The translations under genes and the position numbers were made by a program. A model generated the notes under the pieces. The model had not been told where the DNA came from. It ran no database searches and saw only the letters and a program-made list of their open reading frames with translations. A DNA stretch of 41,001 bases, taken from positions 1 through 41,001 of the forward strand of contig JADGHL010000035.1 in the NCBI GenBank assembly GCA_019686135.1. Direction: 5' to 3'. How positions within the stretch are numbered: position 1 is the stretch's first letter; every line of letters starts with the position of its first letter. Positions 14,452-39,497 of the stretch are shown piece after piece. Source of the stretch: Myxococcaceae bacterium. GTDB taxonomy: Bacteria > Myxococcota > Myxococcia > Myxococcales > Myxococcaceae.

Positions 14452-15732
14452 TCAGTTGGCGCGCTTGAGCGGCGTGCGCTTCTTGGGCGTGAGCGGCTTG
14501 CGCTCCTCCTTCTGGGCCGTGCCGCCCTTGTCACCGGCCGCGGTGTCCACGCCGAGCAGATCCGCCGACTCGGCCGCCTTCGGGAGCTGGCCGTAGCGTA
14601 CTTCCGCGATCTTCACGCCACCGCCCTTGAACTCGTTGGAGACCGGCCCGGGGACTCGCGTGTCGGTGCCGACCTTGAGACCCTCCTTCGCGAGCGAGCC
14701 GACCAGGTTGTAGAACTCCATGCCCGCCGAGAGCAGCTCGGTGTCGAAGGTCGACCGCGGCAGCCGCTTGAGCGCGCCGGACTTCGTCTCCAGCACGAAG
14801 CTGTCGAGCGCGAGGTTCTTCCCCTCGCGGGAGAGCGCCCCGAAGATCAGCAGGTCCGCCTGCGCCGCCTGCGCGTACTGCTTCGCCGCGTCGATCACCC
14901 CCTGGTCGAGCCGGTTCTGCGAGAGCGTCGCGAGCATCTTCGACTCGGGATCCTGGCCGGTGGCCTGGCCGAGCACCTTCACGGTCTTTTTCGCTTCGAT
15001 CCGGGCCACCCCGCCGATCGCCTCCCCCGAGGGGAGCTGCACGCGCCAGACGTGGACGCCGGGCGGAACGTCGTTCACCTGCAGCGGCGTGGAGCCGAGC
15101 GCCACCCCGTCCACGGTGACCGCCGCGCCCATCGGCGAGGACTCCACGAGCAGCGTGCCCTTGTTGCCCTTCATCAGCGCCGCGCGGGCGTCATTGACCA
15201 CGCGGGTGAAGAGCGCGGAGGTCTTCGCCAGCGGCAGCTCGCGGTTCGGCGCCAGCGCCAGCGCCGTGTCCAGCGACCGCGCGCCGTCCTCGTCGCGGCC
15301 GGTGAGATACTGGATCGCCGAGAGCAACACCCACGCGTCCTGGTACTCGCCGACATCCGTCAGCCCCGGCGCGCCCTTCTCGTAGGCGGCGAGCGCCTTG
15401 TGGAGCGCCTCCTCGGCCGCGCGGAACTTCCGCTTCGCGCGGAGGTCTTGCGCCTCCTCGACCGCCGCCCGGGCCTGTTCCAGCGCATCCTTATAAGGAT
15501 CCTCGTGCGGGGCGCTGGCCTTCGTTGCGTCGCCAATGAGGGCAAAGCCGTCGGCGTTCTTGAGCTCGTTGGAGAGCATCCCGGCGGCCTTGGTGCCCGC
15601 GCGCTGGGGCACGTCGCCGGAGAGCGCGGCGAACGGCACCACCGCCACCTTCGGGGCTTCCTTCTCCTGCGCGAGGACCAGCGTGGAACAGAGGACGACT
15701 GCGGCAAGAATGGGGGCGAACGTCTTCTTCAT
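14452..15732 (-). CDS. Exported PEGA-domain protein
   Basis: 426 residues, ATG at 15732, chosen for the signal peptide (KKTFAPILAAVVLCSTLVLA) there. After the signal comes KVAVVPFAALSGDVPQ, a TolB/CsgG-like opening strand. A helical, TPR-like region (about 55-170, RAAEEALHKALAAYEKG) follows. A PEGA domain at about 190-250 shows GTLLVESSPMGAAVTVDGV, LGSTPL and VPPGVHVWRVQLP. The C-terminal region is mixed and the tail very basic. PEGA domains bind surface or periplasmic ligands. It is the first gene of the minus-strand operon with gluQ, AgmX-like, GNAT and miaE, and is probably driven by a promoter in the 98-nt divergent gap to the response regulator. The function is unknown. Confidence 0.85.
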   Translation of the reverse strand: MKKTFAPILAAVVLCSTLVLAQEKEAPKVAVVPFAALSGDVPQRAGTKAAGMLSNELKNADGFALIGDATKASAPHEDPYKDALEQARAAVEEAQDLRAKRKFRAAEEALHKALAAYEKGAPGLTDVGEYQDAWVLLSAIQYLTGRDEDGARSLDTALALAPNRELPLAKTSALFTRVVNDARAALMKGNKGTLLVESSPMGAAVTVDGVALGSTPLQVNDVPPGVHVWRVQLPSGEAIGGVARIEAKKTVKVLGQATGQDPESKMLATLSQNRLDQGVIDAAKQYAQAAQADLLIFGALSREGKNLALDSFVLETKSGALKRLPRSTFDTELLSAGMEFYNLVGSLAKEGLKVGTDTRVPGPVSNEFKGGGVKIAEVRYGQLPKAAESADLLGVDTAAGDKGGTAQKEERKPLTPKKRTPLKRAN

Positions 15733-15830
15733 CGCGGCGGACACTACCTTAGGGTCTGCCCAGGGCAGAACGATCGTTTTGATCCGGCTCACGGATTGAA
15801 GACGGACGCTCGAGCCCCTACCTTCATTCC

Positions 15831-16220
15831 GTGAGCCTGCTTCGGACCCGGCGCATCCTCGTTCTGGACGACGACGAAGCGCAACGTGACGTGCTCTCCG
15901 AGATCCTCGGACTGGAGGGCGCCGAGGTGCTGAACGCAACCACCTGGGAGGAGGCCGCCCGCCTGCTGTCGGACGGGGCGGACCTGGTGTTGATGGATCT
16001 GCACGGCGTGGACGCCGATCGCCTGATGCGGCATCTGCGCGCCACCGGGTCCGCGCCGAAAGTGCTGCTGGTGAGCGGGGACGCCACGCTGCGCCAGCAG
16101 GCCGAACGTCTCCAGGTGGACCGTTGGCTGGCCAAGCCGTACGACGTCGATCAGCTGCTGGACGCGGTGAAGGACCTGTTGGCTCCGGCCGAAGGCGGGC
16201 CAGAGCATCCTTCCCCCTGA
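15831..16220 (+). CDS. Single-domain response regulator (receiver only)
   Basis: 129 residues with a GTG start at 15831. A complete receiver domain: acidic triad D13-D15 (ILVLDDDEAQRDVL), phospho-acceptor D56 (LVLMD), S82 (LLVSGD) and K102 followed by Pro (LAKPYD). There is no output domain. It is followed after 35 nt by the metallophosphoesterase and the coupled cyclase gene, on the same strand. Control of nucleotide signalling by this receiver is a reasonable inference. No histidine kinase is adjacent. Confidence 0.93.
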   Translation: MSLLRTRRILVLDDDEAQRDVLSEILGLEGAEVLNATTWEEAARLLSDGADLVLMDLHGVDADRLMRHLRATGSAPKVLLVSGDATLRQQAERLQVDRWLAKPYDVDQLLDAVKDLLAPAEGGPEHPSP

Positions 16221-16255
16221 GCTTCGGCGATTGAGGCTACGCTCGGACGGACACC

Positions 16256-17167
16256 ATGCGGTTTCTCCACCTCTCGGACGTCCACGTCACCCAGGACTAC
16301 TTCCGCGTGCCCTTCCGCAAGCTGGGGTGGCGGCGGGCGATCGCCCTGCTCGAGCTGTCGATCGGCGGGCGGGCGAAGCGATACGCCGGCGCGCGGGAGA
16401 CGATCTCCCGAATCCTCGAGGAGCGGCACCAGCACGGGGTGGACCACGTCATCCTCTCGGGCGATCTCACCGCCTACGCGACGGAGTGGGAGTTCGAACA
16501 GGCGCGTCAGGCGATCGGCGCGCTGGGGGAGGACCGTTCGAAGATCACCATCATCCCCGGCAACCACGACGTGTACACGCCGGGCGCGTACAACACGCGC
16601 CGCTTCGAGCGGTACTTCGGGCACCTGCTCCACAGCGATTTGCCCGAGTACTGCCGCGACGGCGCGTTCCCCTTCGTGCGGCTCCTCGGAGACGAGGTCG
16701 CGGTCGTCGGCCTGATGAGCGCGCGCGTGCCGCCGATGCCGGGCTTCTCCTTCGGCGTGGTCGGGCGCAAGCAACTGACTGCGCTGCGCGATCTGGTGCA
16801 CGACGAACGGCTGGCGCACCGGGCGATCCTCGTGGTGGTCCACCACGCGCCGATCGCGCCGTCCGGCCGCAAGGACCGCTTCCTCCACGGGCTGATGGAC
16901 GCGGACCTGTTGTTCAAGATCCTCCCCGGTCCACGCTTCGCGGTGCTGCACGGCCACATCCACAAGCGCTACCACCACGCGGCCACCGACAAGCGGCCGC
17001 ACACGTTCGGCGCCGGATCCTCCACCGAGGGCGGACACGAGGGCTACTGGGTGATCGACGTGCGCGACGGGCGGATCGCCGGCGGGGTGATGCACACGCC
17101 GCGGCTGGGAGAGCCGGTTGGAGCGGCGGTCGAAGAAGGGGCGGGCGTAGTAGAAACCCACCCATGA
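16256..17167 (+). CDS. Calcineurin-like metallophosphoesterase (CpdA/Icc-like)
   Basis: 303 residues, ATG at 16256. All dimetal phosphoesterase motifs are visible: D8-V-H10 (FLHLSDVHVTQDYF), GDLT with D70, GNHD at 102-105, VVHHAP, and the C-terminal GHIHKRYHH. The pattern fits class III-type phosphodiesterases such as the cAMP phosphodiesterase CpdA, although cAMP specificity cannot be read from the sequence. The stop overlaps the start of the cyclase-domain gene by 4 nt (ATGA), so a nucleotide-degrading enzyme and a nucleotide cyclase would be made together. That context raises the likelihood that a cyclic nucleotide is the substrate. Confidence 0.9.
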   Translation: MRFLHLSDVHVTQDYFRVPFRKLGWRRAIALLELSIGGRAKRYAGARETISRILEERHQHGVDHVILSGDLTAYATEWEFEQARQAIGALGEDRSKITIIPGNHDVYTPGAYNTRRFERYFGHLLHSDLPEYCRDGAFPFVRLLGDEVAVVGLMSARVPPMPGFSFGVVGRKQLTALRDLVHDERLAHRAILVVVHHAPIAPSGRKDRFLHGLMDADLLFKILPGPRFAVLHGHIHKRYHHAATDKRPHTFGAGSSTEGGHEGYWVIDVRDGRIAGGVMHTPRLGEPVGAAVEEGAGVVETHP

Positions 17168-18789
17168 GGCAGCCCGCAGCGATCGCGCCCGAACCCGACG
17201 AATCCGAGCTCCGTTTCCTGCGGGCGCTCAACCAGCGCGTGGACGATCTGTTGGAGCAGTGCCTGCGCGGCCGCGAGAACCTCGCGCAGTGCTTCCGCCG
17301 GCTTCTGCCCGAGCTCATCCGCCTCACCGGCGCGAGCGCCGTGGCAATCACCACCCGGAACGAGGATCTCGAGGAGGAGACCTGGGCGCACGGCAGCTTC
17401 GGGGCGATCGCTCCGTCGAAGGCGCTCGCCGATCATCGGTAGGGCGTCCACCGGTTCGAGAGCGGGACGCTGGCCACGCAGCCGCTGGATGTCGCCGGTC
17501 AGGAGGTGGGGCGGATCGGCCTTCTCTTCGAGGGCGATCGCACCGGGGCCCACGAGGCGGCGCGCCTGTTGCGGATGCTGGACACCATCGCCGAGGAGCT
17601 GGACTCGGTGCTGATGATGGTCCACACCGCCTCGGAGAAGCACCAGATCATCCTCCAGGTGAACGAGCTGCTCTCCAACCCGGTGTTCGAGTCCGGGATG
17701 GATCAGGCGGTGCGGGCGATGGCCGAGCGGGTGCATCTGCCCGGGCTGTTGCTGGTGTTCCGCGACGCGGTCGACTCCGACGTGCTGCACTACCGCAGCT
17801 ACGTGCGTGGCCGGCTCGAGTACGAGTCCTCGGAGCGGCCGTGGAAGGATCTGGACGCGGCGATCGCCTCGTGGGGCGGGGAGCTGATCGCCCGGGAGGA
17901 CCGGCGGCTGCGCGAGGTGATCGGCTCACACCGTTCGGTGGAGGCGCTGTTGATCACCGGCGCGTCGCAGGCCCGGCCGCTGGGGAAGATCCTCGTGTGG
18001 TCGGACGCTGACGGCTTCTCCGCCTTCAGCATCGACCTCATCCGCGTGCTGGCGTCGACGCTCTCGCAGCGCCTGATGGACTACAACCGCGAGCGCATCC
18101 ACCTGTCGCAGTTCTTCTCCAACCGCGTCATCGACGAGCTGCTCCAGGATCCGAACTACGCCGCGCGCTACCTCTCGCCGCGCGACGAGGAGGTGGGGAT
18201 CCTCTTCGCGGACATCAACGGCTTCACGCGCATCTGCGAGCAGGTGCTGGAGTCGCCCGCGCGGATCGGCCGCTTCGTCGATCGCTGGAGCGACGGCGTG
18301 GTCGACCTTCTGTGGGAGCACGGCGGCGTGTTCGACAAGATGGTGGGCGACTGCGTGATCGGCCTGTTCGGTCCGCCGTTCTTCCGCACCTCACGGGTGG
18401 AGCGCGCGGAGTCCGCGGTGCGCGCAGCGCTGGCGATCCAGGCGTTCACGCGGAAGATCAGTGACGAGCTGCCCGAGGTGGAGCGGATCCGCGAGGTCCT
18501 CGGGACCGAAGGGCTGGGCGTGGCCATCGGCATCAACCTCGCGCCGTCGTACTGCGGCCTGTTCGGGCCGAACCAGATGTACACGGCCTTCTCCACCGGC
18601 ATGAACCAGACGGCGCGGCTGCAAGCGCTGGGAAGCTTCCGCGAAGTGCTGGTGATGGACTCCGTCCGCAAAGCGCTGGAACACAGCCGCGACGAGTCGC
18701 TGCGCCAGCTCCGCTACGGGCCGCTCACCGAAACGCCGGTGAAGAACGTGAGTCAACCTCTCCGTCACTACCGCTTACTGCCGAGCTGA
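17164..18789 (+). pseudogene. GAF-like plus class III adenylate/guanylate cyclase gene interrupted by an in-frame TAG
   Basis: One reading frame from the ATG at 17164 to the stop at 18789 would code for 541 residues, but codon 93 (17440-17442) is TAG. Coding character, frame and domain continuity hold on both sides. Residues about 15-190 look like a helical plus GAF-like sensory region spanning the stop. Two further segments lead to a class III cyclase domain (about 335-525). It has metal-binding D350 (ILFADINGFT) and D396 (FDKMVGDCVIGLFG), and transition-state N481 and R485 (MNQTARLQ). Several residues around the base-specificity loop are unusual (STG where GDP is common). A GTG at 17506 could restart translation and give a 427-residue protein that keeps the cyclase domain. 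Confidence 0.82.
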
Positions 18790-18861
18790 TCCGGGCGCTG
18801 GTCCGCAGACCCGCCCGGCCGAAGGCCGACACAAACGACCCATGACGCACGACATTCGCGG

Positions 18862-19245
18862 CTACGCTTCGAGCGTCGTGCCTGCGTAGCGCCGCATGAA
18901 GTGCGTCCAGCCGCGCGAGTCGACCTGAACTTGCCACTCCGAGTTGCGCAGCAAGGGGATGCGCGGGCTGATGAACTCGGCGAGGTGATCTGCAGCGCGG
19001 TTCGGCGTGAGCCCCGGCGCGCGGAAGGCGATGCGGAGGAAGACGTCCAGCGTCGGGGTCACGTCCACCGAGGCGCAGATGCGCAGCTTGCCCACGGTCC
19101 TTTGGTACGCGGGGTTCTGGCCCGGTCGGAGCTCGGGCCGTGCGCGCAGCTCCGAGAGCATCACCCAGTTCTGCGGCGCCAGGACGAACGCGAGCAGATC
19201 CGCGCTCGCTTCCTCAAGGCTGTCGTGCTCGAGACTCGTCTGCAT
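18862..19245 (-). CDS. Hypothetical protein
   Basis: 127 residues, ATG at 19245 preceded by GAGGGAGGG, a good ribosome-binding site; the frame is open further upstream but reads as noise. It is soluble with no signal peptide. The opening is helical and acidic (SLEEASADLLAFVLAPQNWV), the centre is beta-rich (LRICASVDVTPTLDVFLRIAF), and the end is SEWQVQVDSRGWTHFMRRY. Family not recognised. It converges on the cyclase gene across 72 nt and is preceded by a 218-nt non-coding gap in which only a weak promoter-like sequence was seen. Confidence 0.65.
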   Translation of the reverse strand: MQTSLEHDSLEEASADLLAFVLAPQNWVMLSELRARPELRPGQNPAYQRTVGKLRICASVDVTPTLDVFLRIAFRAPGLTPNRAADHLAEFISPRIPLLRNSEWQVQVDSRGWTHFMRRYAGTTLEA

Positions 19246-20909: not shown

Positions 20910-21500
20910 CTAGGGATTGAGGCGCTCCAGCTCCCACGCGTCCTTGTCCGACGCACGCCGGTAGACCTCCCGGTCGTGCAGACGGCTGGCGCGGCTCTTC
21001 CAGAACTCGATCCGATCCGGCACCACGCGGAAGCCGGACCAGTGCGGCGGACGCGGGATCGGCCTGCCTTCATAGAGCCGCTCCAGCTCGGCCACCCGCG
21101 CTTCCAGCTCCTCACGCGAGGCCAAAAGCTCGCTCTGGTGCGAGGCCCACGCGCCGATCTGCGAGCCCCGCGGACGGCTGGCGAAGTACGCATCGGCCTC
21201 CGCGTCGTCGACCTTCTCCGCGCGCCCTTCGATTCGCACCTGCTGCTCGAGCTTCGGCCACCAGAAGCTGAGCGCCGCGTACGGCCTCGCGAGCAGGTCG
21301 CGGCCCTTCCGGCTCCGGTAGTTCGTGTAGAAGACGAACCCGCGCGGGTCGAACGACTTGAGGAGCACCACGCGGCTCGAGGGCCGGCCGTCGGGCCCCA
21401 CCGTCGCCAGCGTCATCCCGTTCCAGTCCTCCGGGTACGCGGCCTTCGCGGCTTCGACCAGCGCGGCGAATCTCTGGAAAGGATCGTCAGGGGCTTTCAT
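20910..21500 (-). CDS. pdxH: Pyridoxamine/pyridoxine 5'-phosphate oxidase
   Basis: 196 residues from the ATG at 21500 (a GTG directly before it is also possible). It is an FMN enzyme that makes pyridoxal 5'-phosphate. Signatures: MTLATVGPDGRPSSRVVLLK (FMN phosphate site), FVFYTNYRSRKGRDL, WWPKLEQQVRIEG, the PLP-site segment SRPRGSQIGAWASHQS, and the C-terminal PHWSGFRVVPDRIEFWKSR ending LERLNP. Length and motif order are canonical. It is the first gene of the pdxH-hemG pair and is divergent from glgA across 76 nt. Confidence 0.97.
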   Translation of the reverse strand: MKAPDDPFQRFAALVEAAKAAYPEDWNGMTLATVGPDGRPSSRVVLLKSFDPRGFVFYTNYRSRKGRDLLARPYAALSFWWPKLEQQVRIEGRAEKVDDAEADAYFASRPRGSQIGAWASHQSELLASREELEARVAELERLYEGRPIPRPPHWSGFRVVPDRIEFWKSRASRLHDREVYRRASDKDAWELERLNP

Positions 21501-21576
21501 CACCCGCCAAAATGACGCACCGGCCCGTGTTTTTGCAGCGGATTCACCGCGGGCCTGCTGGCAAGTTCATGACCGG

Positions 21577-23064
21577 ATGAAGATCCTCTTCCTGTCGTCC
21601 GAGGTGGTCCCCTATTCGAAGACCGGCGGGCTCGCGGACGTCGCCGGTGCGCTGCCGGCCGCGCTGGCGGAAATCGGTCACGAGCTCCTCGTGGCCACGC
21701 CGCGCTATGGGCACATCCAGCCGCCCGATGGGCTCGAGGCGCTCGACCCGCCGCTGACCTTGCGCTTCCCCTTCGGCCCACAGGCCGCGCACTACGCGCT
21801 GCACGGGCGGGCGCCCAACCTCCGGGTCCTCTTCATCGGCAACGACGCCTTCTTCGCCCGGCCGGGCATCTACAACGATCCCTCCGGCAGCGACTTTCCG
21901 GACAACCACCGCCGCTTCGCCTTCTTCACGCTCGCGGCGCTCTCCGGCGCGCAGCACCTGGGCTTCGTGCCGGACATCGTCCACTTCAACGACTGGCAGA
22001 CGGGGCTCGGGCCGCTGGCGCTGCGGCGGGGCTATGCGGGCACTGCGCTCGCTCGCGCGAAAAGCGTCTTCACCATCCACAACCTCGCCTACCAGGGCCT
22101 GTTCCCAAAGCGCGTGATGGAGGATCTGGGCCTGCCGTGGGACGTGTTCACGCCGGAGGGCCTCGAGTTCTACGACCACGTGAACTTCCTCAAGGCCGGG
22201 CTGGTCTGGGCCGACGCGCTCACCACCGTCTCGCCGCGCTATGCGCAGGAGATCCAGACGCCCGAGGCGGGTTACGGGCTGGATGGGCTCCTCCGCCGGC
22301 GCACGGGCGATCTGCACGGGATCCTCAACGGGATCGACGCGCGCGAGTGGAATCCGGCGGAGGATCCGTACCTCCCGGCGCGCTACGACCAGGACGCGCT
22401 CGATGGAAAGGCCACCTGCCGCCGCGAGCTGCTTTCGCGCTTCGGGCTGACGACAACGGATGGGCCCGTGTTCGGGATCGTCAGCCGGCTCGCGGGGCAG
22501 AAGGGCTTCGACATCCTCATCCCTGCGCTCGAGCACGCGCTCGGCGAAGACATTCGGCTCGTGGTGCTGGGCTCCGGCGAGGCGCGCTACGAAGCGGGCT
22601 TCCGCGCGCTCCAGCAGCACCATCCGGACAAGGTCGGGCTTCGCTTCGGGTTCGACGTCGCGCTCTCGCACCTCGTGGAGGCGGGCGCCGACTTCTTCCT
22701 GATGCCCTCACTCTACGAGCCGTGTGGCCTCAACCAGCTCTACTCGCTGCGCTACGGGACCGTCCCGGTGGTCCGCGCGGTGGGCGGGCTGGACGACACG
22801 GTGGTGGACGTCGACGCCGACTTGGCGCATGGGACCGGTATCAAGTTCGGACCGTACGACGCCGGCGCCGCGGCGCACGCGATCGGCCGCGCGCTCGAGC
22901 TGTGGCGCGATCCGCCGCGGCTGAGAGCGGTGCGCCGCCGCGGGATGCACCAGGACTTCTCGTGGACCCGCTCGGCCCGGGCGTATGAGGCGCTCTACCG
23001 CTCGCTCGTCCGCCCGGAGAGCGCCGCGGGCCAACAACTCCCGGCGGCCCGCAAAGCGCAGTAG
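21577..23064 (+). CDS. glgA: Glycogen synthase (ADP-glucose, GT5)
   Basis: 495 residues, ATG at 21577. The start is fixed by the invariant N-terminus MKILFLSSEVVPYSKTGGLA with K15 of the KTGGL sugar-nucleotide site; the frame stays open upstream but reads as noise. Other signatures: DIVHFNDWQTGLGPL, KSVFTIHNLAYQG, FGIVSRLAGQKGFDIL, and PSLYEPCGLNQLYSLRYGT with the catalytic Glu. It extends alpha-1,4-glucan from ADP-glucose in the cytoplasm. The Ser/Thr kinase gene starts 9 nt after its stop, so the two are almost certainly co-transcribed. Control of glycogen metabolism by that kinase is plausible but unproven. Confidence 0.97.
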   Translation: MKILFLSSEVVPYSKTGGLADVAGALPAALAEIGHELLVATPRYGHIQPPDGLEALDPPLTLRFPFGPQAAHYALHGRAPNLRVLFIGNDAFFARPGIYNDPSGSDFPDNHRRFAFFTLAALSGAQHLGFVPDIVHFNDWQTGLGPLALRRGYAGTALARAKSVFTIHNLAYQGLFPKRVMEDLGLPWDVFTPEGLEFYDHVNFLKAGLVWADALTTVSPRYAQEIQTPEAGYGLDGLLRRRTGDLHGILNGIDAREWNPAEDPYLPARYDQDALDGKATCRRELLSRFGLTTTDGPVFGIVSRLAGQKGFDILIPALEHALGEDIRLVVLGSGEARYEAGFRALQQHHPDKVGLRFGFDVALSHLVEAGADFFLMPSLYEPCGLNQLYSLRYGTVPVVRAVGGLDDTVVDVDADLAHGTGIKFGPYDAGAAAHAIGRALELWRDPPRLRAVRRRGMHQDFSWTRSARAYEALYRSLVRPESAAGQQLPAARKAQ

Positions 23065-24734: not shown

Positions 24735-25388
24735 ATGAACGTCACCTCGCCCCGGCCCGCTTCGGTCGTCGTTCCCCGGGCAGCTCCGGCTGCTCGCGCT
24801 TCGGCCGCGCACGATGGCGGCTTCCTCCACGACGTCGGACACTTCTTCGACCATCTGAAGGACGAGTTCGAGAACGCGGGCGGCCGGCTGATTGGCGAGA
24901 TCGAAAAGCTGGGCATCCGCTTCCCGGTCGAGCACTACAAGGCGCAGGTCTCTCCGGGGCTTTGGCGTGGATCGCGGCTCGATGACCGTGGCTGGGCGGA
25001 GCTCAAGGCGATGGGCATCAAGGCCACGGTCGATCTGCGCGCCGAGGAGTCCGGCGAACCGGAGGTGGCGGCGAAGTACGGCATCCGCACGCTCCGCATC
25101 CCCATCACCGACAACACGGCGCCCACCACCGGGCAGGTGAAGACCTTCCTCGACTTCGTCACCCGGCCGGAGAACCAGCCGGCGTATGTGCACTGCGAGG
25201 CCGGCGTGGGTCGCACGGGCGTGATGGTCGCCGCGTACCGCATGGCGGTGCAGGGCTGGAGCGCGGACGAGGCGATCGCCGAGGCGAAGCAGTTGGGCCT
25301 GTCGATGCCCAGCCAGAAGGACTTCCTCCGCCGCTTCGCCCGCGACCTCGCGGCCGGCCGGATCGAAGGCTACGGCAAGGCGGCGTGA
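24735..25388 (+). CDS. Dual-specificity/tyrosine-type protein phosphatase
   Basis: 217 residues, ATG at 24735 with GGAGGGT upstream. Residues about 1-65 are a Pro/Ala-rich then helical extension (FLHDVGHFFDHLKDEF) with no signal peptide. The phosphatase domain follows: SPGLWRGSRLDDRGWAELK, VDLRAEESGEPE with the general-acid loop region around PITDNTAP, and the P-loop HCEAGVGRTG with nucleophile C154 and R160. The domain is of the DSP/PTP (Siw14/PFA-like) kind. These act on phosphoproteins or inositol polyphosphates, and the actual substrate is not readable. It shares strand and neighbourhood with the Ser/Thr kinase. It converges on the transporter gene with only 3 nt between stops. Confidence 0.92.
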   Translation: MNVTSPRPASVVVPRAAPAARASAAHDGGFLHDVGHFFDHLKDEFENAGGRLIGEIEKLGIRFPVEHYKAQVSPGLWRGSRLDDRGWAELKAMGIKATVDLRAEESGEPEVAAKYGIRTLRIPITDNTAPTTGQVKTFLDFVTRPENQPAYVHCEAGVGRTGVMVAAYRMAVQGWSADEAIAEAKQLGLSMPSQKDFLRRFARDLAAGRIEGYGKAA

Positions 25389-28387: not shown

Positions 28388-29215
28388 ATGCAGCGGGCGA
28401 GCGACAGCGTCGCGGACGATTGGGCCGGGTCCATCGTCTTTCCGCCGGGGACGTGGATCCTCGCCGCGCACCCGGACGACGAGACCATCGGCGCAGGTGT
28501 CACCCTCGCGGCCAGCCCCGGCTGCGGCGTGCTCCACCTCACCACCGGCGCGCCGGTCTCGGCGCGATGGCGGCCCGTGGGCGCTCCGGCATCGCGCGCG
28601 GACTACGCGGCGGTGCGGCAGGCGGAGGTGCGGGCGGCGCTCGCGCTGGCCGGAATTCCACCCGCGCGGATCCGCGCGCTCGGCGGCGAGGACGGCGACG
28701 CCATCCGCCAGGCCGGCGCGCTCGCGCGGTTGCTCGCGATCGAGCTCGACGCGCTGGGGTGTACGCGGCTGGTAACCCATCCATATGAGGGCGGGCACCC
28801 GGACCATGACGCCGCGGCGCTGGTGGCGCGCCTCGCCATCCACGCGCTCGAGCGCGACGGGCGCCGTCCCCCGGCGCTGTGGGAGATGACCTCGTACCAC
28901 CGCTTCGGCGACGCGCTCCGGTCCGGCGTGTTCCTGTCGTCGCAGGGCGACGAACGCATCCGGTGGCTCTCCGCCGAAGACCTCGCCTTCAAGCGCCGGA
29001 TGCTGGCGGCGTTCACGTCCCAGCGCGAGACGCTGGCGCAGTTCCCCGTGGTGCCCGAACGCTTCCGGCCTGCGCCGCGCTGTGCGTTCGCGCTTCCGCC
29101 GCACCCGGGCACGCTCTGGTACGAACGGATGGGCTGGATGAGCGGCGCCATCTGGCGGGACCACGCGCGCCGTCACCTGCGCGCCTTCGGGCTGAGCGAG
29201 GACGCGTGGCTCTGA
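28388..29215 (+). CDS. PIG-L/LmbE-family deacetylase
   Basis: 275 residues, ATG at 28388. The zinc-binding signature AHPDDETIGAG is at 27-37, with the second metal ligand in HPYEGGHPDHDAAALVA. PIG-L/LmbE proteins remove the N-acetyl group from GlcNAc in lipids or small molecules (GPI precursor, mycothiol, bacillithiol, some antibiotics and glycans). The C-terminal part is longer than in BshB. The stop overlaps the glycosyltransferase-fusion start by 10 nt, so the two are translated together. That makes a GlcNAc-transfer plus deacetylation pathway likely. Confidence 0.92.
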   Translation: MQRASDSVADDWAGSIVFPPGTWILAAHPDDETIGAGVTLAASPGCGVLHLTTGAPVSARWRPVGAPASRADYAAVRQAEVRAALALAGIPPARIRALGGEDGDAIRQAGALARLLAIELDALGCTRLVTHPYEGGHPDHDAAALVARLAIHALERDGRRPPALWEMTSYHRFGDALRSGVFLSSQGDERIRWLSAEDLAFKRRMLAAFTSQRETLAQFPVVPERFRPAPRCAFALPPHPGTLWYERMGWMSGAIWRDHARRHLRAFGLSEDAWL

Positions 29216-31293
29216 CGGTCCTCAACGTGGCGTTCCCGTTCGCGCCGGTGGGGCCCGCCGCTGTGGGCGGTGCCGAACAGATCCTCACCGCGCTCGATGC
29301 CGGGCTCACGCGTCGCGGGCACCGCTCCCTGGTCATCGCCTGCGAGGGGTCGCAGGTCCAGGGCACGTTGTTCGCCACGCCTGCGCCGGGCGAACGGATC
29401 GACCGCCGCGCCACCGAACGCGCCTGGGCGCTGCACCGTCTCGCCATCGAGGAGGTGCTCCGCTCCACGCGCGTGGACGTCGTGCACTTCCACGGGCTCG
29501 ACTTCCACGCCTACCTCCCGGATCCGCTGCCGCCCGCGGCGCTGGCGACGCTGCACCTGCCGCCCGGCTGGTACGACGACGCCATCTTCGCGTTGCCCGA
29601 ACGCGGCGTGGAGCTGGTCTGCGTCTCGGACACGCAGCGCGCGAGCTGTCCTGCGCATGCGCGCATCGTCGCCACCATCCCCAACGGCGTCGCGGTGGAG
29701 GCGTTCCACGGCGCGGTGCGGCGGCTCGGCTTCGTGGCGATGCTGGCGCGCGTCTGTCCGGAGAAGGGCTTCCACCTCGCGCTGGAGGCGGCCCGCCGCG
29801 CGGACGTGCCGTTGCTGATGGCCGGCAGGGTCTTCGGCTACCCGGCGCACCAGCGCTACTTCGACGAGGAGATCGCCCCGAGGCTCGACCGCCGGCGGCG
29901 CTTCATCGGACCGGTGGGGCCGCGGGCGCGGAGGCGGTTGCTCGGGCTCGCGCGCGCGCTGCTCGTGCCCAGCCTCGCGCCCGAGACGAGCTCGCTGGTG
30001 ACGATGGAGGCGCTTGCCAGCGGGACCCCGGTCATCGCCTTCCGCCACGGCGCACTCCCGGAGTTAATCGACCACGGCGTCACCGGCTTTCTCGTCGACG
30101 ATCTGGACGGGATGGTGGAGGCGCTCTCGCGGATCGACGAGATCGATCCGAAGCTCTGCCGTGCCCACGCGCGGCTGCGCTTCTCCGTTGAGGCGATGAT
30201 CGCCCGCTACCTGGTGCTGTACGCGCAGCTCGCCGAGCGCGCGCGCACCGCCGCCGCCCGCGTCGCGCCGTCGCTGTCACCCGGATCGGTCGGGCTCCGC
30301 GCCGAGCGGGTTGACGACCGCGCCGGGCTGCAGAAGCTCGAGCCCCAATGGCGCGCCCTGTGGCGGCGCGCGCTGGGGGCCACTCCGTTCAACCACCCCG
30401 ACTGGCTGATCCCCTGGTGCGTGCACTTTGGGCGGCGCGCTGTCAACGCGGTGGCGCTGTTCCGCGGGGACACGCTGGTCGCTCTCGCGCCGCTGGAGGT
30501 GTGGAACGAGGGCGGGGTGCGCGTGCTCAAGTTCCTCGGCGCGGGGATCAGCGACGCGCTGGATGTGCTGGTGGACGGAGACGACGCCGCGGCGCTCACC
30601 CGCGCGCTGTGGGCCGCGCTCATGGACGACAAGAGCCGCTTCGACCTGTGCGAGCTCTCACCGGTCCCCGCCGACTCTCCGCTGCGGTCGGCGGCGCTGC
30701 CGGCGCGGTGGACCCGCTGCGAGGTGTCGCCGCAGCTGCACATCGTGGGCGGCCGGTCGCTGGAGGAGGTCGTGCCGCGGCCGCTGTGCACCGCGGTCCG
30801 GTACAACGCGCGGCGCCTCCAGCGCGAGGCGGGCGTGCGCTTCGAGTCCGCGACGGAGGACACGGCGCCAAAGTTCGTCGAAGCGCTGGCGGCATTGCAC
30901 CGGGCGCGGTGGGCGCGCCGCGGAGAACCCGGGGTGCTGGCCGATCCGCCGGTGGCGGCGTTCCACCGCGAGGTGGCCCCGCGCTTCGCCCGTCTGGGGA
31001 TGTTGCGGATGGAGGCGTTGCGCGTGGACCAGGCCTTCGTCGGCGTGCTCTACGCGTTCAGCGCGCGCCGGCGCTGCCACTACTACCTGAGCGGGTTCGA
31101 TCCCACCTGGGAGCGGCGCAGCCCGGGGTCCGTCCTCATCGGCCGCGCCATCGAGTGGGCGATGGCGGCGGGCGATCAATTCTTCGACTTTCTCCGCGGC
31201 GCCGAACCGTACAAGTACCGCTGGGGCGCCACCGATCGCCCTCTGTGGCAGTGCGCGTTCGAGGCGGCCGTGGCGCAGGGGGCGGCGCGATGA
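29206..31293 (+). CDS. Fusion protein: GT4 glycosyltransferase plus CelD/GNAT-6-type acyltransferase
   Basis: 695 residues from the GTG at 29206; the frame runs unbroken through both parts. Residues 1-345 are a GT4 glycosyltransferase. They show the N-terminal nucleotide-sugar loop AAVGGAEQIL (G21-E24), VVHFHGLDFHAY, PNGVAVEAF, MLARVCPEKGFHLAL, and the E-x7-E signature (E260, E268 in PETSSLVTMEALASGTPVIA). A short Ala-rich linker follows (about 345-362). Residues 363-695 are a CelD/BcsL-type GNAT (GNAT_6) domain: LEPQWRALWRRALGATPFNH, VALFRGDTLVALAPLEVW, YLSGFDPTWERRSPGSVLI and DFLRGAEPYKYRWG. It probably forms a glycosidic bond and then acylates an amine, perhaps the one freed by the neighbouring PIG-L enzyme. 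The product is unknown. Confidence 0.88.
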   Translation: MALTVLNVAFPFAPVGPAAVGGAEQILTALDAGLTRRGHRSLVIACEGSQVQGTLFATPAPGERIDRRATERAWALHRLAIEEVLRSTRVDVVHFHGLDFHAYLPDPLPPAALATLHLPPGWYDDAIFALPERGVELVCVSDTQRASCPAHARIVATIPNGVAVEAFHGAVRRLGFVAMLARVCPEKGFHLALEAARRADVPLLMAGRVFGYPAHQRYFDEEIAPRLDRRRRFIGPVGPRARRRLLGLARALLVPSLAPETSSLVTMEALASGTPVIAFRHGALPELIDHGVTGFLVDDLDGMVEALSRIDEIDPKLCRAHARLRFSVEAMIARYLVLYAQLAERARTAAARVAPSLSPGSVGLRAERVDDRAGLQKLEPQWRALWRRALGATPFNHPDWLIPWCVHFGRRAVNAVALFRGDTLVALAPLEVWNEGGVRVLKFLGAGISDALDVLVDGDDAAALTRALWAALMDDKSRFDLCELSPVPADSPLRSAALPARWTRCEVSPQLHIVGGRSLEEVVPRPLCTAVRYNARRLQREAGVRFESATEDTAPKFVEALAALHRARWARRGEPGVLADPPVAAFHREVAPRFARLGMLRMEALRVDQAFVGVLYAFSARRRCHYYLSGFDPTWERRSPGSVLIGRAIEWAMAAGDQFFDFLRGAEPYKYRWGATDRPLWQCAFEAAVAQGAAR

Positions 31294-35670: not shown

Positions 35671-35748
35671 ACCGGCCTACCCCGGCATTCGCATCAGCCG
35701 GTCATGTCGCGGCGCCGCGGACTATCGTCGCGCGCCGGAGGTGGGCAC

Positions 35749-38094
35749 ATGGGTCTTCGCTTCCAGAGCGCGCGAGCGTTTCTATGCGCCGCAGCGCCGA
35801 TCGCGGCCCTGGTTGTGCTGAGCGGCTGCTTCGACGGCAAGGTGGGAGGCATCGACGCCGGCATTACCGGAGACGAGCCGAGCGCACCGGAAGCCGCCTG
35901 TGCGGTGGAGACCATCCTCCAGACGCGCTGTTCGTCCTGCCACGGCGCCACGCCCGCAGAGGGCGCGCCCATGTCGCTCACCTCGCTGGACGCGCTGCGC
36001 GCCCCGTCGCTCCGCGATCCGGCGCAGAGCTTCGGCCAGCGGAGCGTGGCGCGCATGCGCGACACCGTCTCGCCGATGCCGCCGCGCACCGCGACGCCCG
36101 CCACCGAACAGGAGATTGCCACGTTCGCAGCGTGGGTCGCGGGCGGCATGCCCGACTGCGACGGCGGGACGGGAAGCGACGGCGGCACCGGCTACAAGCA
36201 CCCGAACCTGATCCCCCAGGACCAGCTCTTCCAGTGCCAGGGCCTCGTATCGGACGCGCCTGGCCGGATCCGGCGCATCAACCGCTGGCAGTGGACGCGG
36301 AACGTGGGCGGATCGGTGACGCGCGAGTGGACGGGCTTCAGCTTCTATGACAACCCGCTCGATCCCGCCATCACCTCGCCCTACTGGAGCTACGCCGCGG
36401 ACGACACCGTCGACGACACGATGGTGGAGATCATGCTCCCGCTTCTGGGCGAGTACGGCGCCACGTGGGCCGGCCCGTACACCGGCAGCAACCGGCTCGA
36501 GCTCCTCCGCAACGACGCGTCGTTGCGCTGCATGTGGGAGGACGAGTCGCCGTCGCCGGACTGCATCGAACACTACGCCGCCACGTTGCTGGAGAAGGGC
36601 GTGCTCTACCGGCCGCCGAGGCCCGCCGAGCTGAGCCACCTGGTGGAGTTCGCCCAGGCGGTGCTCGCGCAGGAGATCCCCGATGGGACGCAGGATCCGC
36701 GCACGCACACCCTCTCACGCATCGTCGCCGCGGCGATGATGACGAGCGGCGCGCTCTTCCGCGAGGAGCTGGGCACGCCCGACGGCAACGGTCGCGTCCG
36801 GCTCACCGATTGGGAGCTGGGGCAGCAGCTGGCCTACGCGCTCGGCGATCGCGGCCCGGGTGCGGTGCCGCTGTGGCGCTACCCCGACTTCTCCGCGCCG
36901 CAGGAGGGCCACTACGCGGACGTGGCGAACGCCGCACGGGACGGGACCATCCGCGATCCGGCGGTGGTGGGCGCGTTGATCGACGCCAACTTCGGCGGGG
37001 TCGATCCGGAGCGTAGGGACCTCATCCAGGACCTCGACGAGAACCGCCGCTCGCGCCGGGGCGAGTACTGGCTGGGCGACGGCGCGGCGAACTTCTTCCG
37101 TCAGTGGCTCGGCTACACGAAGGTGGAGGAGATCTTCAAAGAGCGCCCCGAGGCCACGTCCGCGTACGACGACGGGAACAACAGCGGCTATCGCGCGCAG
37201 CTGTCCGCCTGGAGCCAGCTGATGGACGGCTACTACGGCTACGAGTCCACGCTGGTGCAGCAGATGGACGACTTCGTCGCGCGCGCCGTGGAGCCCGACG
37301 TGGACGTGCTCGCGACGCTGCTCACCACGCGCACGTTCTTCCTGGCCGCCACCGCGAACTCCGGGTTCGACGGCGACGCGACCCGCTACACCGGCCAGCC
37401 CTACAACACCGAGGTGGAGATCGACGCGAAGAACCCCGCCCAACGCTGGCAGACGCTCCCGGCCGACGAGCGTGCGGGCGTGCTCACCCACCCGGCGTGG
37501 CTGGCGGCGCACGGCGGCAACTTCGAAGACGATCCCTCCGCGGTCCACCGCGGGAAGTGGGTGCGCGAGAAGCTGCTGTGTCAGTACGTGCCCCCGTTGA
37601 GCGACGTGAAGGTGATGGCCAAAGTCGGACCGCACTCGCCGGACAAGAGCGCGCGCGCCCGGCTGTCGGAGGCGACCGCCAGCCCCGAGTGCCAGGCGTG
37701 CCACTCGCTGATGAATCCGATCGGCTTCGCCTTCGAGATCTACAACCACGCCGGCTACGTGCGCGTGCATGACCACGCGCCGGACGGCGGCTTCATGCCC
37801 CCCAGCGGCGCCGTGGAGCTGACCAACATGCCGGAGCCTGCGCTCAACGGGCCGGTGAGGGACGCGGTCGAATTGAGCGAGAAGCTGGCGCACTCGAAGC
37901 ACGTGAAGCGCTGCTTCATCCGCCAGGCCTTCCGCTACTACATGGGCCGCGACGAGAACCTCAGCGACGCGTGCACGCTCGCGAAGATGGAGCAGGCATA
38001 CGACGCGAACGGCGGCTCTTTCCGGTCGATGCTGAAGGCGCTGATGACCTCCGACACCTGGACCACCCGCCGGGCTCCGGCGAAGGGAGAGTGA
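35749..38094 (+). CDS. c-type-haem lipoprotein of the DUF1592/DUF1588/DUF1585 (planctomycete-cytochrome-associated) class
   Basis: 781 residues, ATG at 35749 with GGAGGTGGG upstream; an open frame 45 nt further up lacks this site. The signal ends in a lipobox (VLSGC, Cys 27). The haem site CSSCH is at 61-65 in the N-terminal cytochrome domain, and a second CxxCH (CQACH) is at 648-652. Between them lie regions typical of DUF1592 (HTLSRIVAAAMMTSGALFRE, FFRQWLGYTKVEEI) and DUF1588 (HPAWLAAHGGNFEDDPSAVH, RGKWVREKLLCQYVPPL, CHSLMNPIGFAFEIYN). A DUF1585 tail has SKHVKRCFIRQAFRYYMGR. The set is widespread in Planctomycetota and Myxococcota, normally followed by a DUF1552 gene as here. It is a probable envelope oxidoreductase; the reaction is not established. 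Confidence 0.9.
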   Translation: MGLRFQSARAFLCAAAPIAALVVLSGCFDGKVGGIDAGITGDEPSAPEAACAVETILQTRCSSCHGATPAEGAPMSLTSLDALRAPSLRDPAQSFGQRSVARMRDTVSPMPPRTATPATEQEIATFAAWVAGGMPDCDGGTGSDGGTGYKHPNLIPQDQLFQCQGLVSDAPGRIRRINRWQWTRNVGGSVTREWTGFSFYDNPLDPAITSPYWSYAADDTVDDTMVEIMLPLLGEYGATWAGPYTGSNRLELLRNDASLRCMWEDESPSPDCIEHYAATLLEKGVLYRPPRPAELSHLVEFAQAVLAQEIPDGTQDPRTHTLSRIVAAAMMTSGALFREELGTPDGNGRVRLTDWELGQQLAYALGDRGPGAVPLWRYPDFSAPQEGHYADVANAARDGTIRDPAVVGALIDANFGGVDPERRDLIQDLDENRRSRRGEYWLGDGAANFFRQWLGYTKVEEIFKERPEATSAYDDGNNSGYRAQLSAWSQLMDGYYGYESTLVQQMDDFVARAVEPDVDVLATLLTTRTFFLAATANSGFDGDATRYTGQPYNTEVEIDAKNPAQRWQTLPADERAGVLTHPAWLAAHGGNFEDDPSAVHRGKWVREKLLCQYVPPLSDVKVMAKVGPHSPDKSARARLSEATASPECQACHSLMNPIGFAFEIYNHAGYVRVHDHAPDGGFMPPSGAVELTNMPEPALNGPVRDAVELSEKLAHSKHVKRCFIRQAFRYYMGRDENLSDACTLAKMEQAYDANGGSFRSMLKALMTSDTWTTRRAPAKGE

Positions 38095-38096
38095 CC

Positions 38097-39497
38097 ATGT
38101 TCACCCGCCGCGCGTTCCTTCAGTCCGTCGCCGCCACCGGCCTGTTCGCCGCGCTCTACCGCGAGGCGTTCGCGCAGTCCGTCACGCCCCGGCGCCTGGT
38201 GCTGGTGCTCGAGTGCAACGGCATCTACCCGGAGGCGTTCCTCTCCGCCGGCACCCGCGCCGCGCTCGGCGCGGAGAAGATCGGCGGCCGCCATCACAAC
38301 TTCGGCGACAGCTACCCGGATTCGCCGCTCGTCCGGGAGGGAGACGACCTCTCCACCGCGCTCTGCCTTCAGCCGCTGGCCGGAAGCGGGGCGGAGATCT
38401 CGCTGGTGAACCGCTCGGCGGTGGTGCTCGGGTTGTCGTCGTTGATCACCGGCGGAGGGCACTCCACCGGCACGGGCGCGCTGAGCTGCGCGGTGGATGG
38501 CGCCGCCGCCACGTTCGATGCGGTGATCGCCCCGAGGCTCAAGGGCACCGCCCCGTTCGATGCGATCCGCTTGGGCACCAGCTCCTCGCTGACGCCGATC
38601 GCCTACCAGACCTGCGCGTACGGACCGCGGCGGCCGGCAGGCATCCTCGTGAACCCAGCGCTCGCCTGGAACACCATCTTCGGGTCGATCGCCGCGGGCA
38701 CCTCCGCCGGCCTCGAGCGCAGCATGCTCTTCGACTTCGCGCGCGACGACGTCGTCACTGCGCTCAAGACCTTCTCCGGCAACTCGCGCGAGCGCGCCAA
38801 GCTGGAGCGGTACCTCGAGTCACTGGAGAAGCTGCGCGCCCGCGAGGCCCAGCTCAAGAGCATGGCCGCGAAGGTGCAGCCGTTGTTGCCGCCCGCGCCG
38901 GCGGACAACCCGCTGTTGCAGGGAGGCGGCAGCCCGCCGGATTCGCTCAAGTGGCTGGAGGCGCAGTTCGAGATCGCCACCTCCGCGTTGCTGGGCGGGC
39001 TCACCAACCTGGTCGTGCTGGCGTCGGGCACCTCCGGGTTCGACGTGCACTACGACTCGATCATCCCCGACATCGGCCGTCATGACCTGCAGCACGGCAT
39101 CGACAACCCTGGCAACTACACCGCCATCGCCGCGGTCACGCGCAAGCACGTGGAGCTGGTGGCGAAGCTGGCGCGCGCGCTCGAGGCCACGCCGGAGGTG
39201 GGCGCGGACGGCACGATGCTCGACCACACGATCATCGTCTACATGTCCGACAACGGCGAACAGCACCACTCGGAGGCGCGCGAGTGGCCGAAGCTGATCG
39301 TCGGCGGCAACGCGCTGGGGATGAAGACCGACGGCCGCACCGTGATCTACCCGCGCGACGGCGCCGCGCGGAACCGGCAGGTCTCGAACCTCTTCAACAC
39401 GCTCGGGCACGCCTTCGGGGACAGCGACTTCAACACCTTCGGCGCGGAGGGCACGACCCGCATCGCCGCCGGGCCGCTGTCGGAGATCTGGGCGTAG
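38097..39497 (+). CDS. DUF1552-family exported protein
   Basis: 466 residues, ATG at 38097, 2 nt after the stop of the haem lipoprotein. The N-terminus has a Tat-like twin Arg and hydrophobic stretch (TRRAFLQSVAATGLFAALY), then cleavage after AFA. The domain includes RRLVLVLECNGIYPEAFLS, GGGHSTGTGALSC, FDAVIAPRL and IIVYMSDNGEQHHSE, matching DUF1552, an alkaline-phosphatase-like family with metal-ligand candidates (SDNGEQHH). These proteins occur almost always next to DUF1592/DUF1588 proteins and are thought to act together in the periplasm or on the surface. The biochemical role is unknown. Tat export would fit co-factor loading before transport. Confidence 0.9.
   Translation: MFTRRAFLQSVAATGLFAALYREAFAQSVTPRRLVLVLECNGIYPEAFLSAGTRAALGAEKIGGRHHNFGDSYPDSPLVREGDDLSTALCLQPLAGSGAEISLVNRSAVVLGLSSLITGGGHSTGTGALSCAVDGAAATFDAVIAPRLKGTAPFDAIRLGTSSSLTPIAYQTCAYGPRRPAGILVNPALAWNTIFGSIAAGTSAGLERSMLFDFARDDVVTALKTFSGNSRERAKLERYLESLEKLRAREAQLKSMAAKVQPLLPPAPADNPLLQGGGSPPDSLKWLEAQFEIATSALLGGLTNLVVLASGTSGFDVHYDSIIPDIGRHDLQHGIDNPGNYTAIAAVTRKHVELVAKLARALEATPEVGADGTMLDHTIIVYMSDNGEQHHSEAREWPKLIVGGNALGMKTDGRTVIYPRDGAARNRQVSNLFNTLGHAFGDSDFNTFGAEGTTRIAAGPLSEIWA

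Follow-up and report, generated by a model that had tools for sequence, protein, structure and literature searches.

An in-frame TAG interrupts a predicted tandem-GAF class III cyclase gene in a member of the Myxococcaceae

Gene layout of the locus

The window analysed here is an entire contig of 41,001 bases (C124), belonging to the 5.5-Mb genome of an uncultured Myxococcaceae-like bacterium; the genome is assembled in 245 contigs and is 97% complete. A reading frame on its forward strand runs from an ATG at 17164 to a TGA at 18787-18789 and, in sequence and translation, is open save for a single TAG at 17440-17442, which is codon 93. The features of the locus are as follows.

15831..16220, + strand: response regulator receiver protein, upstream
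16256..17167, + strand: calcineurin-like metallophosphoesterase with DxH, GD, GNHD and GHxH motifs; 4-nt overlap with the cyclase start
17164..18789, + strand: interrupted gene for a tandem GAF-class III nucleotidyl cyclase, 542 codons including the TAG and the final stop
17164..17442, + strand: first open frame, with a predicted 92-residue truncated product ending within GAF-A
17200..17673, + strand: GAF-A domain and long exit helix, residues 13-170 (structure models), broken by the TAG
17440..17442, + strand: in-frame TAG, codon 93; 8 of 18 relatives have Trp (TGG) here
17501..17505, + strand: AGGAG put forward as a ribosome site, unlikely at zero spacing to the GTG
17506..18789, + strand: 427-aa open frame beginning at the GTG after the TAG, with the end of GAF-A, GAF-B and the whole cyclase domain
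17674..18108, + strand: GAF-B region, residues 171-315 (structure models)
18172..18786, + strand: class III cyclase domain, residues 337-541, with D350, K392, D396, T478, N481 and R485 present

The cyclase ATG and the TGA of the upstream phosphoesterase have four nucleotides in common (ATGA, 17164-17167), which agrees with the overlap that the earlier note had described. GC at third codon positions is 0.88 before the TAG and 0.93 after it, and the coding signal is similar on either side. The earlier note's view of a TAG interrupting one otherwise continuous frame, with coding character kept on both sides, was therefore borne out; its coordinates are exact, chance does not account for the pattern, and relatives align across the stop as one protein.

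The phosphoesterase matches PF00149 with 56.7 bits and has complete metal motifs; NCBIfam gave only matches far below any cut-off, and PHROGs only generic phosphoesterase names. In the best 80 loci of a named genome collection, a phosphoesterase adjoins the cyclase in 25, lies further away in 3 and has no match in 48, with too little upstream DNA in the remaining 4. The 25 adjacent cases comprise 17 loci and 8 more (L094, L117, L118, L119, L121, L122, L123 and L125) in which the match ends less than 200 nt from the cyclase start region. It is a reasonable guess that phosphoesterase and cyclase form a putative maker-and-breaker, or on/off, pair for a cyclic nucleotide.

Three further observations concern other parts of the window. 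One polypeptide (28879-31293) carries glycosyltransferase domains (Glyco_transf_4, Glycos_transf_1) and a C-terminal GNAT domain (Acetyltransf_6), neighbouring PSCyt3/PSD2 (DUF1588/DUF1585) and HXXSHH (DUF1552) genes occupy overlapping open frames at 35704-39497, and an open frame at 24735-25388 resembles a dual-specificity/tyrosine phosphatase by eye, with an HCEAGVGRTG stretch.

The encoded protein and known cyclases

Pfam recognizes only the cyclase domain of the window protein (Guanylate_cyc, PF00211, 48.1 bits against a cut-off of 21.9), and all 43 members of the protein alignment match the same model. Pfam GAF models do not match the window protein and match the alignment weakly, PF01590 in 1/43 members (E 0.0043) and PF13185 in 1/43 (E 0.0088); in NCBIfam no model covers the cyclase. 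The sensory region was recognized by structure. With AlphaFold2 the read-through protein was modelled at a mean pLDDT of 92.3, and a second model restricted to residues 1-315 has a mean of 93.4. Structure comparison of GAF-A (model residues 14-157) with 3trc gave Z 13.5 and an rmsd of 3.1 Å over 131 residues, and the 1-315 model aligns with the tandem GAFs of PDE5 and PDE6 as two domains, with an rmsd of at least 10 Å that we would put down to domain orientation. The C-terminal domain superposes on 1wc1_C (Z 25.5, 1.6 Å over 187 residues) and 3r5g_A (Z 24.8, 1.8 Å over 188 residues). The GAF structure match and the PF00211 score support both parts of the earlier assignment, a GAF-like sensory region and a cyclase domain.

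Residues D350, K392, D396, N481 and R485 are invariant in 43/43 rows, and position 478 is Thr in the window protein. We take their catalytic roles to be those of the two metal-binding Asp (D350, D396), the purine-contacting Lys (K392) and the transition-state Asn and Arg (N481, R485). A Lys and Thr pair in class III cyclases points to ATP as the substrate, and its presence suggests that the window cyclase is probably an adenylate cyclase. There is no strongly hydrophobic 19-residue stretch in the protein (maximum mean hydropathy 1.28), and the predicted product is a soluble tandem-GAF class III cyclase.

The class III catalytic fold is common to the window protein, Spirulina CyaC (1wc1) and Pseudomonas aeruginosa CyaB (3r5g), but the window domain is only 23-25% identical to the catalytic domains of these enzymes, and their sensory parts differ from that of the window protein. 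The arrangement of two tandem N-terminal GAF domains and a C-terminal class III cyclase domain is shared with Anabaena CyaB2, in the source for which NKFDE is given as the signature of cyclic-nucleotide-binding GAF domains (PMC4411481). Unlike CyaB2, the window protein lacks NKFDE and has a stop codon in its GAF-A; a regular expression for the motif matched neither the window protein nor any of 42 homologues. Within the same bacterial family, the Myxococcus xanthus adenylyl cyclases CyaA and CyaB are osmosensors described as receptor-type (PMC7643160). That description sets them apart from the window protein, which has no strongly hydrophobic stretch. The available portion of the literature on Myxococcus adenylyl cyclases yielded no paper on this tandem-GAF cyclase gene family.

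Relatives across codon 93 and the source of the stop

The column of the TAG was inspected in an alignment of 18 close relatives, in the 80 loci and in 96 genomes of the family. The 80 loci are mostly from Myxococcaceae (Myxococcus, Corallococcus, Pyxidicoccus, Archangium, Hyalangium) and metagenome-assembled genomes so labelled, the more distant ones coming from other delta-proteobacterial MAGs and Elusimicrobia. Relatives match both flanks of the TAG as one protein, with only a one-residue length difference at the stop in some rows. The region is spanned unbroken in 79/80 loci, the remaining one, L135, being cut by a contig edge. The gene was found in 73/96 family genomes including the window's own (72/95 others), and none of the 71 other family genomes with a match spanning codon 93 has a stop there; G103, whose match starts at residue 251, is excluded from this count, and in G005 the one TGA within the match simply marks the regular end of the gene. 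The earlier note had named homologues with a natural end at codon 92 as evidence against an interrupted gene; none was found in the 80 loci or in the 96 family genomes. Since the spanning relatives carry no stop at codon 93, the gene is, judged from these comparisons, ancestrally one piece, with the window copy alone interrupted. A premature stop missing from the orthologues, here from 18 relatives, 79 unbroken loci and 71 spanning genomes, is the pattern of a nonsense pseudogene. The gene is single copy; no other cyclase match in the genome exceeds 33% identity, and these matches cover part of the length.

Of the 18 close relatives, 8 have Trp (TGG) at this column, 3 have Phe (TTC) and 7 have a gap; of the 80 loci, 19 have Trp (TGG), 3 have Phe, 31 have other residues and 27 (including L135) have a gap. 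Gln occurs in neither set (0/18 and 0/80). The earlier note had read the stop as CAG changed to TAG by one transition and had suggested aligning homologues across codon 93. A single transition still accounts for the stop, but that alignment, with Trp, Phe, other residues or a gap and never Gln, makes CAG an unlikely source. The simplest origin of the TAG is likely a G-to-A change in the Trp codon TGG; the ancestral Trp is likely rather than certain because the column lies in a loop of variable length. According to a study of pseudogenes, in-frame stops arise most likely from single transitions in codons such as UGG (PMC8629427), and the window gene is alike in that its one TAG falls where many relatives have Trp. 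It differs from such pseudogenes in showing no further decay so far and in that its lesion is probable rather than certain.

Consequences of the stop for the protein

In the structure models, codon 93 sits between a helix (84-90) and a strand (94-98) of GAF-A, and three strands of this domain lie beyond the end of the 92-residue product. The first 92 residues would be unable to form a full GAF sheet because strands 94-123 are missing. Translation from 17164 would end inside GAF-A, so the full sensor-cyclase would not be made.

After the TAG there are 448 codons, in which the 427-aa frame from the GTG is open and complete. The earlier note had proposed a restart at GTG 17506, preceded by AGGAG (17501-17505). 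This proposal is weakened by the position of the motif, which directly abuts the GTG; zero spacing is too close for normal Shine-Dalgarno pairing. The GTG is codon 115 and lies, in the model, inside the last strand of GAF-A (113-123). In the 18-relative alignment various residue pairs occur at the position of the AGGAG, which is therefore better read as ordinary coding sequence. Other internal in-frame starts are GTG 17608 (AGGAG, spacing 9) and TTG 17950 (GGAGG, spacing 5). GC-rich coding DNA often contains ribosome-site-like matches of this kind, and since only 2 of 10 checked ORF starts of the window carry a listed motif, the test is weak in both directions.

A real mutation or an error in the assembly

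The evidence on the stop favours a real and recent nonsense mutation, which we consider likely and which probably inactivates the cyclase. It would consist of a G-to-A transition turning a probable Trp codon into TAG in an otherwise intact, single-copy tandem-GAF cyclase gene, so that translation from 17164 would end after 92 residues inside GAF-A. The downstream cyclase frame would then probably be silent, or weakly expressed from internal starts without GAF-A control.

No second lesion was found in the 540 other codons of the gene, and the catalytic residues are intact, so the event must be recent, if real, or an error. The gene offers 136 possible one-step changes to a stop, from which neutral drift after loss is limited to about 0.07 substitutions per site (5% level), an approximate limit that takes no account of indels or mutation bias. 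Relaxed selection in the first 92 residues was hinted at by raw identities (0.43 vs 0.54); the relative rates speak against it, with the divergence of the N-terminal part being usual for the family (ratio 2.02, rank 8/35 in a relative-rate table whose row 1 is the truncated L135).

The other reading of some weight, though an unlikely one, is a mistake in assembly or base calling, or a base from a minority strain that entered the consensus, the organism's own gene being intact. The single lesion without other decay, the unbroken gene in every relative whose match spans codon 93 and the division of the assembly into 245 contigs would all agree with it, and the intact cyclase part also fits either a sequencing error or a product that is still expressed. 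On the other side, the change is of the common transition type expected of real nonsense mutations according to the pseudogene study (PMC8629427), and the assembly is not visibly error-prone. The latter was judged in a 441-kb genome sample, made up of the window and 20 further stretches, that was screened for stops with same-frame coding signal on either side. The screen returned 36 such stops, 8 of them with the first start codon at least 10 codons off; coding signal within the stop-to-start gap was present at 3 of these 8, the window TAG being the strongest. One of the two other gap cases parts a PAP2 gene from an aminotransferase gene and thus represents two ordinary neighbours. The 441 kb hold no other clear in-frame stop lesion, and L168 contributes one further candidate. 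At L168:19478-19480 there is a TAG with weak same-frame coding on either side (gap score 0.21), a Big_5 match upstream and no Pfam match downstream.

Split gene, restart switch and recoding

A functional split, in which a truncated GAF peptide would accompany a separately initiated, constitutively active GAF-B-cyclase, is improbable. The complete 427-aa downstream frame and the internal starts at GTG 17608 and TTG 17950 would permit it, yet the GTG 17506 is badly placed, a scan of 15600-19000 found no promoter-like site of the sigma-70 type, and the peptide would be left with an incomplete GAF sheet. The 79 unbroken loci and 71 unbroken family genomes also rule out a gene that is naturally split in its relatives. 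Slightly harder still to credit is a TAG tolerated as a low-level readthrough or restart switch, whereby most ribosomes would stop at 92 residues and a minority would yield the full-length protein or an unregulated GAF-B-cyclase, replacing a regulated cyclic-nucleotide level with a low, unresponsive one.

Least credible of all is that the TAG is translated as an amino acid, by readthrough or by recoding: the coding signal and homology do run on past the stop, and the loop at this position is a tolerant one that 7/18 relatives lack, but TAG works as a normal terminator in this genome. The strongly coding ORFs of the 441-kb sample (237 in number) end in TAG in 76 cases, TGA in 149 and TAA in 12, a usage opposed to that of a recoded genome, in which TAG is rare or absent as a terminator. 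In the window, the glgA-like gene (21358-23064), which the earlier note had cited as an example of normal TAG use, does end in TAG, as do the PEPCK, AIRS and DUF1552 genes. ARAGORN found no UAG-reading (CUA) tRNA at 42 Rfam tRNA places, an incomplete list with no Ser or Ile tRNA in it, and the RNA surrounding and following the stop has no notable structure (z -0.36). TAG recoding in this organism is very unlikely, as the earlier note had also held.

Implications

The gene is of a known kind and its nonsense codon looks ordinary, with no new reading of the genetic code. The case also serves as a caution: where relatives have Trp, an in-frame TAG is what a nonsense mutation is expected to leave behind, and it does not speak for recoding. 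Should the stop prove real, an annotation pipeline would give two unrelated-looking fragments, and this lineage would very recently have lost a cyclase that 72 of 95 other genomes searched in the family possess, or have uncoupled it from its sensor. More broadly, a predicted soluble tandem-GAF cyclase that lies beside a metallophosphoesterase in many myxobacteria offers a modest lead on cyclic-nucleotide signalling in this group.
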